Source: Hufsiella ginkgonis (GTDB lineage Bacteria; Bacteroidota; Bacteroidia; Sphingobacteriales; Sphingobacteriaceae). Taken from it: a stretch of 64,000 nucleotides of DNA. Shown piece after piece: positions 2,093 through 47,700 of the stretch (positions are counted from its first letter, which is position 1; every line of letters starts with the position of its first letter). The notes under the pieces were generated by a model that saw only the letters and a program-made list of their open reading frames with translations, made no database searches and was not told where the DNA came from. Location of the stretch: assembly GCF_009834915.1 (NCBI RefSeq), contig NZ_WVHS01000005.1:248001-312000 (forward strand), read 5' to 3'. The position numbers were made by a program, and so were the translations under genes.

Positions 2093-2175
2093 ATGAGGGG
2101 AGTCGTTCTGGGATCTGATAATAAGGAATCTCCCTGAACTTTATGGATCAAGCTTAGTTTCCGGGGAGTAGATTT

Positions 2176-2310
2176 GGCTGTCAGCTATCAGCATTCAGCC
2201 CGTAAGTATACCTTGTAAGATAAGTAATTGACGTTGAGCTCTTCCTGAGTAGTATTCCAGGTTTGACAGTGTAATTAAAGCTGATCGCTGATAGCTGAAA
2301 GCTAATAGCT
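2176..2310. repeat. Heptad inverted-repeat element A (TCAGC type)
   Basis: Left arm 2176-2199 reads as 7-nt units GGCTG-TCAGCTA-TCAGCAT-TCAGC. Right arm 2280-2310 is its near reverse complement (GCTGATCGCTGATAGCTG...). The arms are about 80 nt apart. The same heptad pattern recurs at 22098, 22726, 24445, 35695, 40233 and 47667. This copy has the longest spacer and lies in a true intergenic gap. Confidence 0.8.
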
Positions 2311-2459
2311 CCCAAACTTTTAAGCCTGATCCAACTTTATCTCCCGCTGGAGGGAATCCCAGAAGGGGAGGGAGTAATGGAGATCAAGCGACAAATCCGG
2401 AAAGCATTATAGGAAACTTCGTCCGCAATTTACGATCTTAGCCGTTCAAAGGCATTCGC

Positions 2460-21589: not shown

Positions 21590-22099
21590 ATGTTATTAGC
21601 ATTAAATCCATTAGTTAAACCGGATCCGGGATTATTTATCTGGGCTACCGTAGCGTTCCTGCTCCTTTTCATCCTTTTAAGAGCATTTGCCTGGAAACCG
21701 ATCGTTGCAGCATTAGACGAGCGTGAGCGTAATATTGAAGACGCCCTGTCGAAAGCCGAAATGGCAAAACAGGAAATGGCAAAACTGACCAGCGAGAACG
21801 AGCAGCTGTTAAAACAGGCGCGTGCCGAGCGTGATGCCATTTTAAAAGAAGCAAAAGAGCTGAAAGACCAGATCGTAAGCGATGCCAAGAAATCCGCACA
21901 GACCGAAGGCAACAAGCTGATCGAAAAAGCGAAGCTCGAGATCAACGCACAGAAAGCGGCGGCCATGGCCGAAGTAAAAAGCCAGGTGGTTTCGTTATCG
22001 CTCGAAATTGCGGAGAAAGTACTGCGCAAGCAGTTCGAAGACCAGGGCAAGCAACAGGCACTGGTGAATGATCTTTTGAAGGAAGTAAAATTGAACTAG
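21590..22099 (+). CDS. atpF: ATP synthase F0 subunit b
   Basis: Peripheral stator stalk. 169 residues: one membrane helix at about 15-35 (GLFIWATVAFLLLFILL), the signature FAWKPIVAALDERERNIEDAL, then an uninterrupted charged helix to the end. Length is normal. The TAG stop (22097-22099) lies in the first bases of repeat element B. Confidence 0.95.
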   Translation: MLLALNPLVKPDPGLFIWATVAFLLLFILLRAFAWKPIVAALDERERNIEDALSKAEMAKQEMAKLTSENEQLLKQARAERDAILKEAKELKDQIVSDAKKSAQTEGNKLIEKAKLEINAQKAAAMAEVKSQVVSLSLEIAEKVLRKQFEDQGKQQALVNDLLKEVKLN

Positions 22100-22180
22100 C
22101 TATCAGCTGTCAGCTATCAGTCCTCAGCGCCGTTAACGCGCCGGAAAGAGCTGATAGCCGACAGCTGGTAACTGATAGCT
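22098..22180. repeat. Heptad inverted-repeat element B (TCAGC type), atpF-atpH
   Basis: Left arm reads in 7-nt steps TAGCTA-TCAGCTG-TCAGCTA-TCAGTCC-TCAGCGC. The right arm ends CTGATAGCT, a perfect complement of the first nine bases. The spacer (GTTAACGCGCCGGAA) resembles those of elements D and F. It fills nearly the whole gap and overlaps the last two bases of the atpF stop codon. Confidence 0.85.
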
Positions 22181-22189
22181 AAACAAACA

Positions 22190-22729
22190 ATGTCAGAAAT
22201 ACAAGTAGCCAGCCGTTACGCCAAATCCCTGATCGATCTCGCCCAGGAGGAAAACGCTTTAGAGGCGGTACGCGGCGACATCGAGCTGTTTTTGAAGGTT
22301 TGCCGCTCGAACCGCGAGCTGCAGGCGGTGTTGAAGAACCCGATCATCAGCCCTTCAAAAAAGATCGTTATCCTGGAAGAGCTTTTCGGAAATACGGTGC
22401 ATAAAGTGGTGCTCTCTTTCTTCCGTATCGTTACCTCGAAAATGCGCTCGGGAATCCTGTTCGCTACCGCGAAGGAGTTCATTAACGAGTACAACAAGCG
22501 CAAAGGCATCGTAAAGGCGTCGGTTATTTCGGCCGTTCCGCTGAGCGAAGAAAACAAACAGCAGATAACCGATACGATAAAGGCAGCCATGAACGGCGAA
22601 GTATTGCTGGAAGCGAAAGTTGACCCGAACCTGATTGGCGGATTTATCCTCAAAGTGGGCGATCGCCAGTTCGACGCCAGCATTGCCAGTAACCTGAGGA
22701 AACTGAAGAAGGAATTTGCGGAGGGGTGA
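22190..22729 (+). CDS. atpH: ATP synthase F1 subunit delta
   Basis: Links the b stalk to the top of F1. 179 residues with the OSCP/delta pattern: VASRYAKSLIDLAQEENAL at the start, LKNPIISPSKKIVILEELF, and the C-terminal VDPNLIGGFILKVGDRQFDASI. Normal length. Its ATG is 9 nt after element B and its TGA lies inside element C. Confidence 0.95.
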   Translation: MSEIQVASRYAKSLIDLAQEENALEAVRGDIELFLKVCRSNRELQAVLKNPIISPSKKIVILEELFGNTVHKVVLSFFRIVTSKMRSGILFATAKEFINEYNKRKGIVKASVISAVPLSEENKQQITDTIKAAMNGEVLLEAKVDPNLIGGFILKVGDRQFDASIASNLRKLKKEFAEG

Positions 22730-22831
22730 TCAGTTGCCTGGAAAGGCAGGAAATACTACAAGATCACAGACAGATGACCAAAGGAATGAAAGCAGTTGGA
22801 ACTGATCACTCACAACCGACTACTGATAACT
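22726..22831. repeat. Heptad repeat element C (TCAGT type), atpH-atpA
   Basis: GTGATCAGTT (22726-22735) and AACTGATCAC (22800-22809) are perfect inverted copies. Read on the minus strand, 22800-22831 gives heptads TCAGTTA-TCAGTAG-TCGGTTG-TGAGTGA-TCAGTT. The left arm is degraded, so this looks like an older copy. The atpH stop TGA (22727-22729) is within the first bases. Confidence 0.7.
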
Positions 22832-22863
22832 AAAAAGATTTAACACTATAACAACAAACTATA

Positions 22864-24438: not shown

Positions 24439-24444
24439 GTAATC

Positions 24445-24515
24445 AGCTGTCAGCTCTCAGCCCTCAGCTCCTGTTAAGGCGCTTTAAGGAAGCTGATGGC
24501 TGATGGCTGACAGCT
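24445..24515. repeat. Heptad inverted-repeat element D (TCAGC type), atpA-atpG
   Basis: Left arm 24445-24469 (AGCTG-TCAGCTC-TCAGCCC-TCAGCT) and right arm 24491-24515 (AGCTGATGGCTGATGGCTGA...) are inverted copies with three mismatches in 25. The 21-nt spacer (CTGTTAAGGCGCTTTAAGG) resembles elements B and F. It starts 6 nt after the atpA stop and ends 8 nt before the atpG ATG. Confidence 0.88.
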
Positions 24516-35694: not shown

Positions 35695-35833
35695 TAGCCG
35701 ACGGCTGATAGCTGACAGCTGAAGCTTGCAACGTACAATAAATCATGATTAAGACATAACGGGTTGATAAAACTGAAACAAGCTAATGGCCAATAGCCAT
35801 CAGCTCTCAGCCATCGGCCGATGCTAATAGCTA
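35695..35833. repeat. Heptad repeat element E, reversed arms, VWA-MoxR gap
   Basis: Left arm 35695-35722 carries GCTGATAGCTGACAGCT and right arm 35796-35833 reads A-TAGCCA-TCAGCTC-TCAGCCA-TCGGCCG-ATGCTAA. The arms are inverted copies about 73 nt apart, but their polarity is opposite to elements A, B and D: the GATAGCT-type arm comes first. It may be two half-elements or an inside-out copy. It fills almost the whole gap. Confidence 0.75.
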
Positions 35834-40231: not shown

Positions 40232-40232
40232 A

Positions 40233-40327
40233 GTCAGTTATCAGTTGTCAGTTGTCAGTTTCCGGTAACCAGTTGTCATTCCCTAAACGCCTTACCGGAA
40301 CTGACAATTGGTTACAGGAAACTGATT
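40233..40327. repeat. Heptad inverted-repeat element F (TCAGT type), kinase-regulator gap
   Basis: Plus-strand units TCAGTTA-TCAGTTG-TCAGTTG-TCAGTTT-CCGGTAA-CCAGTTG keep a strict 7-nt step. The right arm (TTACCGGAACTGACAATTGG...AAACTGAT) is the inverted copy. The core CTAAACGCCTTACCGGAA resembles B and D. It fills the whole gap: it begins 1 nt from the regulator ATG and runs into the kinase stop codon (TAA, minus strand 40326-40328). Confidence 0.85.
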
Positions 40328-47666: not shown

Positions 47667-47700
47667 TCGGTTGTGGTTGTCAGTAATCAATTGTCAGTTC
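47667..47700. repeat. Heptad repeat element G, single arm (TCAGT type)
   Basis: Reads TCGGTTG-TGGTTG-TCAGTAA-TCAATTG-TCAGTTC on the plus strand, a one-armed, partly decayed copy. It fills the gap between the OmpA-like and DUF2461 genes and contains the DUF2461 stop codon (47694-47696). Confidence 0.6.

Follow-up and report, generated by a model that had tools for sequence, protein, structure and literature searches.

Cyanobacterial STRR sequences and long simple sequence repeats are heptanucleotide, intergenic and arranged in tandem direct arrays, with several motifs per genome; unlike for the elements described here, inverted pairing and a G-rich 5′ arm are not known to belong to their definition. 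Heptamer repeats themselves are already known from MacGregor 2015 (PMC4679880), which describes intergenic direct repeats of TAACTGA in Beggiatoaceae, Cyanobacteria and five Bacteroidetes, mixed heptamers in Microcystis and some Bacteroidetes, and 7-nt indels between Cyanothece strains. According to the same paper, some relatives have shorter gaps without the repeats, and one indirect repeat occurs in the BOGUAY genome. Read on the opposite strand, TAACTGA is TCAGTTA, a heptad of our TCAGT flavour, and the TAACTGA repeats are likewise intergenic, heptad-periodic, often near start codons and patchy. However, the paper concerns a near-invariant direct heptamer, whereas the present elements have inverted arms, a variable dinucleotide, a conserved core, a MITE subfamily and an exchange of words at orthologous gaps, and TCAGTTA is one of several heptads.

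In Geobacter metallireducens, the annotation (PMC2700814) lists paired tandem heptads and octads as "predicted global regulator binding sites", one class of which (16 sequences) has the heptad consensus MTYCTGA. These arrays resemble ours in their 7- or 8-nt tandem units, mostly paired with strand switching, but they belong to another phylum and are predicted only. REP and REPIN sequences (PMC3733652, PMC12306157) are also high-copy extragenic palindromes; the elements here differ in their period-7 arms and in a genome in which no Y1_Tnp was detected. In the mostly open literature we found no account of an inverted heptad design with this core, of its G-rich polarity or of word exchange at orthologous gaps, nor, in searches aimed at other features, of the MITE.

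Heptad palindromes in the window and its genome

The stretch of DNA analyzed (the window; 64,000 nt, G000:C21:248001-312000) contained 10 exact matches to the TCAG triplet pattern TCAGNNNTCAGNNNTCAG, which was absent from each of 100 dinucleotide shuffles. Throughout the source genome (5,208,024 bases, 25 contigs) the pattern matched 426 times (214 + 212), compared to 2 matches of a reversed control pattern; several triplet matches can fall in one element, and 426 is not an element count. When TCAG triplets were counted by spacing in a 464-kb sample composed of the window and a further 400 kb, 13 were found at period 7, none at periods 5, 6 and 8 to 13, and one each at periods 14 and 15. The matches were clumped, since 400 kb of contiguous DNA chosen independently of them held only three more clusters. 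The preliminary description had proposed, from the window alone, a dispersed intergenic family of mostly inverted pairs with a period of seven. Both the dispersal and the inverted pairing were borne out, the former by the 426 triplet matches and by at least 70 places found with the core model described below.

We examined 49 clusters of the source genome, in a sample mostly picked where matches lie, and found 32 in tandem gaps, 8 in divergent gaps and 7 in convergent gaps; of the other two, one lay at the edge of a region and one within a called gene. Many clusters had a gene within 20 nt to one side or to both. Genes were called and gaps listed with a home-made hexamer caller rather than from annotation, except for the atp gaps, which were cut by tblastn. 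The AtpG protein matched a Sphingobacteriales MAG (86%) and Pedobacter and Daejeonella (76-83%), and the window was assigned to the Sphingobacteriaceae on the basis of these matches. A search of the window against Rfam 15 at the gathering score gave no matches.

Seven sites had been thought to follow one design (Table 1). Five of them (2176, 22098, 24445, 35695 and 40233) carry at least three TCAG heptads plus a facing arm, which is imperfect at 22098 and 40233, while 22726 and 47667 do not. Folding into a hairpin, also predicted, was strong for single-stranded DNA of sites B, D, E and F (z = -4.8, -5.8, -3.8 and -7.1, respectively), but for site C (22726) the shuffled sequences did equally well in 47 of 200 cases (z = -0.69). 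A partial fold of site A (2145-2294) gave z = -0.3. The proposed division into TCAGC and TCAGT flavours was confirmed, though site B includes some TCAGT-type heptads. The usual order of an element is TCAG arm, loop and CTGA arm, with site E as the exception. Arrays are incompatible with a CRISPR, as the preliminary description had held, being inverted and made of 7-nt units as opposed to direct repeats of 20 or more nt with unique spacers.

Table 1. Coordinates in the window of the seven heptad sites and of the target duplications bordering site A.
Feature	Position	Strand	Description
Site A	2145..2332	+	188-bp MITE; ends GGATCAAGCT / AGCCTGATCC; internal heptad arms TCAGCTATCAGCATTCAG, GCTGATCGCTGATAGCTGA
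Left 8-bp target duplication AACTTTAT of site A	2137..2144	+	Left and right flanks identical 8/8
Right 8-bp target duplication AACTTTAT of site A	2333..2340	+	
Site B	22097..22182	+	Heptad palindrome, mainly TCAGC; fills atpF-atpH gap; core TCAGCGCCGTTAACGCGCCGGAAAGAGCTGA
Site C	22728..22833	+	Decayed, TCAGT flavour, atpH-atpA gap; 1 good left heptad, degenerate right arm
Site D	24439..24515	+	Heptad palindrome, TCAGC; fills atpA-atpG gap; core TCAGCTCCTGTTAAGGCGCTTTAAGGAAGCTGA
Site E	35695..35832	+	Reversed arm order: CTGA arm, then TCAG arm; gap between VWA-domain gene and AAA/chelatase-like gene
Site F	40232..40325	-	Heptad palindrome, TCAGT; fills gap between histidine kinase and response regulator genes
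Site G	47667..47693	-	One imperfect TCAGT arm, weak; between OmpA-family gene and DUF2461 gene

Some elements, sites B and D among them, share the core TCAG-TTCCTTTATGGCGCYATAAAGGAA-CTGA. A search of the sample with this core gave 13 matches, with one place counted twice via overlapping stretches; 11 of the 13 came from the window plus the first 20 stretches, and in this part of the sample none of five shuffled palindromes had a match. A covariance model of the core produced 132 strand matches (E ≤ 0.01) at 70 places, a hand count that includes 14 training elements and is a lower bound, with 150 of 2335 candidates scored. Sites B (G000:C21:270103-270175) and D (E = 7e-16) were matched as training elements, and site F (G000:C21:288234-288325) from outside the training set. 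The first structure obtained with RNAalifold was out of register, so the model based on it (R1) was left unused; the model employed (R2) was built on a hand-set symmetric structure, and its pair counts therefore depend on that choice. In this structure, the arms covary at heptad position 5, which is T or C.

To assess arm agreement we used 19 elements whose arms are both exact; 5 of these elements are MITE copies. The flavour letter agreed in all 125 arm-to-arm heptad pairs, compared to 57% between elements. For the two variable letters, the agreement was 0.43 when facing each other and 0.37 between elements. These results indicate that the heptad is a near-fixed pentamer followed by two loose letters, and that the arms are not mirror copies. 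Flavours were mixed within one array at site B, L036:1522 and L049:5603. A series at L042:12746-12956 (G000:C1, about 852746) contains 16 TCAG units of TCAGCTA, and the unbroken run of 13 of them (L042:12771) suggests a recent expansion; this stretch is probably a hot spot where copy number changes. A compound arrangement was seen at L036:1522-1756, with a TCAGT array, three TCAGC arrays with repeated TGTTTATAAGTTAAGATCATGTTAG-like spacers and one CTGA arm.

The mobile repeat of site A

MITEs are multicopy, non-coding elements with inverted ends and target duplications that are mobilised by a related transposase. The repeat at site A is a MITE, distinct from the elements of the other sites. 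Its left end identified 22 copies in the genome (≤3 mismatches), and both ends were found in 13 copies of 179-194 bp. The terminal inverted repeats GGATCAAGCT and AGCCTGATCC are complementary at 9 of 10 positions, and an alignment of six copies has sharp borders. Target duplications of 8 bp with at least 6 of 8 identical positions flank 8 of the 13 complete copies, 5 of them perfectly, compared to 2 of 156 mismatched flank pairs; in the remaining 5 copies the flanks match at 1-5 of 8 positions. Exactly one right-arm heptad is missing in 3 of the 6 aligned copies. Together, the target duplications and the single-heptad differences demonstrate DNA transposition and 7-nt changes in copy number within one heptad-bearing family.

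The preliminary description, which called a period of seven unusual for MITE palindromes, had not foreseen that site A is a MITE. Its family is MITE-like in having inverted ends, 8-bp target duplications, a length of about 190 bp and multiple copies, and differs from MITEs in that its arms hold heptads in varying number, with no autonomous partner among the 22 copies. The assignment concerns site A; the edges of the core-type elements are fuzzy.

The same design with different words

Loci of relatives were fetched by AtpG alone and hence were not chosen for repeats. Intergenic self-similarity in these loci peaked at lags 7, 14 and 21. We collapsed similar gaps and scored a gap as positive when at least 15 of 21 positions matched at a given lag. 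By this measure, 81 of 678 deduplicated gaps from the source genome, its family and other Bacteroidota were positive at lag 7 and 56 at lag 14, with 1, 4, 17, 4 and 3 at lags 5, 6, 8, 9 and 10, respectively; in E. coli K-12, none of the 36 gaps in two stretches of 50 kb was lag-7 positive. Of 37 Sphingobacteriaceae loci, 27 had at least one lag-7 gap, as did 19 of 43 loci of other Bacteroidota. The gaps of the other Bacteroidota also showed a smaller excess at lag 8 (13/290), as if octads were used in some lineages. The heptad stems have a polarity, with more G than C in the 5′ arm of 47 of 53 informative stems (47:6; p = 6e-9) compared to 59 of 111 other stems (59:52); this bias is absent in the elements of the source genome (4:3).

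TCAG is only one of many heptads in use among the relatives, which the preliminary description had not foreseen, and the dialects differ from genome to genome. The 426 TCAG triplets of the source genome compare with 103 in G021, 61 in G026, 8-41 in six others and no more than 7 in the remaining 51 of 59 other genomes. The TGAGA pattern TGAGANNTGAGANNTGAGA matched 80 times in G003 but never in its congener G027, 45 times in G025, once in G001 and never in the source genome. Among 26 genomes belonging to one genus, 14 had 4-58 strand matches to an 82-nt AGTATCA element and 12 had none. The reversed control pattern GACTNNNGACTNNNGACT had 113 matches in G014 and was also found in some other relatives, perhaps as another heptad dialect.

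Orthologous atp gaps were compared in 116 family loci, where lag-7 arrays occupied the atpA-atpG gap in 84, the atpF-atpH gap in 50 of 76 and the atpH-atpA gap in 20 of 76; gaps shorter than 45 nt were seen in 18, 15 and 19 loci, respectively. Ten of the 116 loci were genomes fetched twice and one was the source genome, and the recount used 106 distinct loci, or 73 in the case of the latter two gaps. Lag-7 positive gaps then numbered 79/106 for atpA-atpG, 49/73 for atpF-atpH and 19/73 for atpH-atpA, with 0-4 at lags 5, 6, 8, 9 and 10, and a stem accompanied the lag-7 signal in 78/106 atpA-atpG and 43/73 atpF-atpH gaps. The heptad types in these gaps include GAGATTT, AGTATCA, AGTTTTA, AAAGTTG, AGTATTT, GGATTTC, GCGTTAA and GATGTGC. 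Arms of one element agree at a mean of 6.1 of 7 letters after rotation, compared to 4.4 for random pairs. The same sequences at identical sites in other genera would, according to the preliminary description, have spoken against a dispersed family, and this is half true, since the design and the atp gaps are shared while the heptads differ.

In some related species of one genus the orthologous gap is short and the element absent. Changes of word were counted on an atpA tree that covers 34 genomes of a single genus and has 9 of its 31 inner branches starred. At atpA-atpG, with short gaps treated as a state, the 30 labelled rows require at least 14 changes; at atpF-atpH, the 28 labelled rows require at least 7. 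Labels were assigned as fits to 15 reference heptads, and 4 and 6 rows, respectively, that could not be given one were dropped. The whole gap differs from stop codon to start codon in the pairs L260/L261, L263/L264, L257/L259, L238/L253 and L240/L088. For L260/L261 the flanks have identities of 0.98, 0.97 and 0.98 while the gap is wholly different; the L260 gap has a lag-7 score of 11, below the threshold, yet a strong stem. L088, L246, L262 and L264, although from different clades, carry recognisably the same atpA-atpG allele; the identity of about 0.3 upstream of the L246 gap was read as an artefact of ungapped comparison. Swaps by recombination through long flanks were rejected because the L260/L261 flanks follow the species tree, but species recombining over short tracts could have produced the whole-gap swaps, as the allele shared between clades suggests. 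The third base of the last atpA codon differs (TAC/TAT) in L260/L261, L263/L264 and L262/L254, so that the exchanged stretch may extend a few bases into atpA.

Over 200 kb, we compared 90 orthologous gaps between the sister genomes L260 and L261, whose genes have a median identity of 92.7%. Fifteen were lag-7 positive, some of which by eye look low-complexity rather than heptad palindromes: 8 were positive and alike in both genomes, 4 positive in one and alike, and 3 positive in one and different. The 75 lag-7 negative gaps included 69 that were alike. Since 8 + 4 of the 15 positive gaps are alike, most copies are stable at this distance.

Mobile palindromes as the proposed reading, and the alternatives

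We read these elements as dispersed non-coding DNA palindromes with tandem-heptad arms that are duplicated, lengthened by 7 nt and replaced whole, a reading to which we give about an even chance. They seem to be a little-described kind of DNA element that spreads and replaces itself in gene gaps. Their arms are built of tandem heptads with about five near-fixed and two variable letters, and the elements lie mostly in co-directional gene gaps. The core type would, like the MITE, spread as DNA, with an enzyme acting in trans, and heptads would multiply by replication slippage. Most copies would be tolerated rather than needed, so that tolerance in operon gaps would set their placement. The fuzzy edges of the core type, the stability of most copies in the sister genomes, the lack of G-rich polarity in the source genome's own elements and the possible origin of whole-gap swaps by short-tract recombination count against this reading, and the searches for Y1_Tnp and RVT_1 in the source genome brought up no mover. 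If the reading is true, a sizeable share of the co-directional gene gaps in Bacteroidota is filled by palindromes defined by design, and elements of this sort can escape sequence-based repeat searches. Dozens of related species with the same gene pair and design but a different word would amount to a natural experiment, in which the origin of the seven-base register, the stop-to-start exchange of gaps and the effect of the gap on ATP synthase subunit ratios become testable.

A broader version would have a phylum-wide class of palindromes with its own enzyme, which lays down or moves heptads in a fixed register (5 letters specified, 2 loose), with few words per genome and exact stop-to-start exchange. 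The heptads would mostly form a facing pair of G-rich 5′ arms, so that an element would resemble a head-to-head joint between two ends, each capped by repeats. We regard this version as distinctly improbable. A reverse transcriptase templating the heptads was considered and rejected, as RVT_1 is absent from the source genome, G021, G015, G025 and G036, all of which have heptad matches; the search covered that Pfam family, and reverse transcriptases outside RVT_1 lie beyond its reach. With neither RVT_1 nor Y1_Tnp detected in the source genome, some different type of enzyme would have to be at work.

The strongest rival, because it is the pentamer and not full pairing that is kept, is that the elements are arrays of pentamer sites at 7-nt spacing, recognised by a DNA- or RNA-binding protein, with dialects reflecting changes of specificity. 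Arrays of binding sites also fit pentamers that hardly vary and dinucleotides that vary freely, and the perfect agreement of the flavour letter between arms, next to the near-background agreement of the variable letters, is what a conserved motif would give. Two earlier reports point the same way: MacGregor 2015 proposed sites for a post-transcriptional regulator for the TAACTGA repeats, and the paired heptad arrays of Geobacter metallireducens are annotated as predicted regulator sites. However, several dialects occur in one genome, as the two atp gaps carry the same heptad (≥6/7) in only 11 of 38 distinct loci with elements at both, flavours are mixed in some arrays and no candidate protein emerged. 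Overall, we consider recognition sites unlikely.

Alternatively, the elements could be intercistronic RNA hairpins selected for mRNA processing, stability, termination or translational insulation, which we judge rather unlikely. Strong stems (score ≥12) were found in 9/14 lag-7 gaps of the source genome, 45/58 of the family and 21/34 of the other Bacteroidota, compared to 0-3% of shuffled gaps and 11-29% of lag-7 negative gaps (up to 100 per set), which favours hairpins. Lag-7 gaps were also rare between divergent genes (4/106), compared to 67/492 tandem (Fisher p = 0.003) and 10/80 convergent gaps, and the heptad stems of relatives start at a median of 2-5 nt after the stop codon and end 8-9 nt before the start codon. 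Rarity in divergent gaps is equally expected if insertions into promoters are purged, though, and related congeners have the same gap short and free of the element. On the transcribed strand, the ratio of G.U to A.C was 57:52 in heptad stems and 76:47 in other stems after deduplication, with no clear excess of G.U in the heptad stems and no significant difference between the two (p = 0.18). Before deduplication the contrast had looked informative: the counts in relatives were 69 G.U and 70 A.C for heptad stems and 86 and 44 for other stems, and those in the source genome were 8:8 and 5:11, respectively.

Local mutation as the sole cause, with arrays made in place by 7-nt slippage and template switching across hairpins, is very unlikely. 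MITE copies differing by single heptads fit it, as do perfect tandem runs, including an unbroken run of seven TTTAGTC units in one of the three differing sister gaps that is absent from the other genome. It leaves the shared core and the target-duplicated MITE unexplained, the facing variable letters are hardly mirrored, and one heptad recurs at many places of G003 with none in its congener (80 versus 0), a genome-wide dialect that argues against it.

A REP/RAYT system is scarcely credible: the elements are high-copy short intergenic palindromes, but their arms are tandem heptads and Y1_Tnp is missing from the source genome and three others, which leaves only a diverged RAYT that escapes Pfam. 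The preliminary description had suggested looking for a REP-associated tyrosine transposase, and the profile of Y1_Tnp (PF01797, RAYT family) gave 0 matches in the source genome at E ≤ 0.001 and none in G003, G015 and G051, which have 80, 20 and 11 heptad-pattern matches. The same profile was positive in 5 of 14 control genomes, and Y1_Tnp was present in 35 of 60 genomes.
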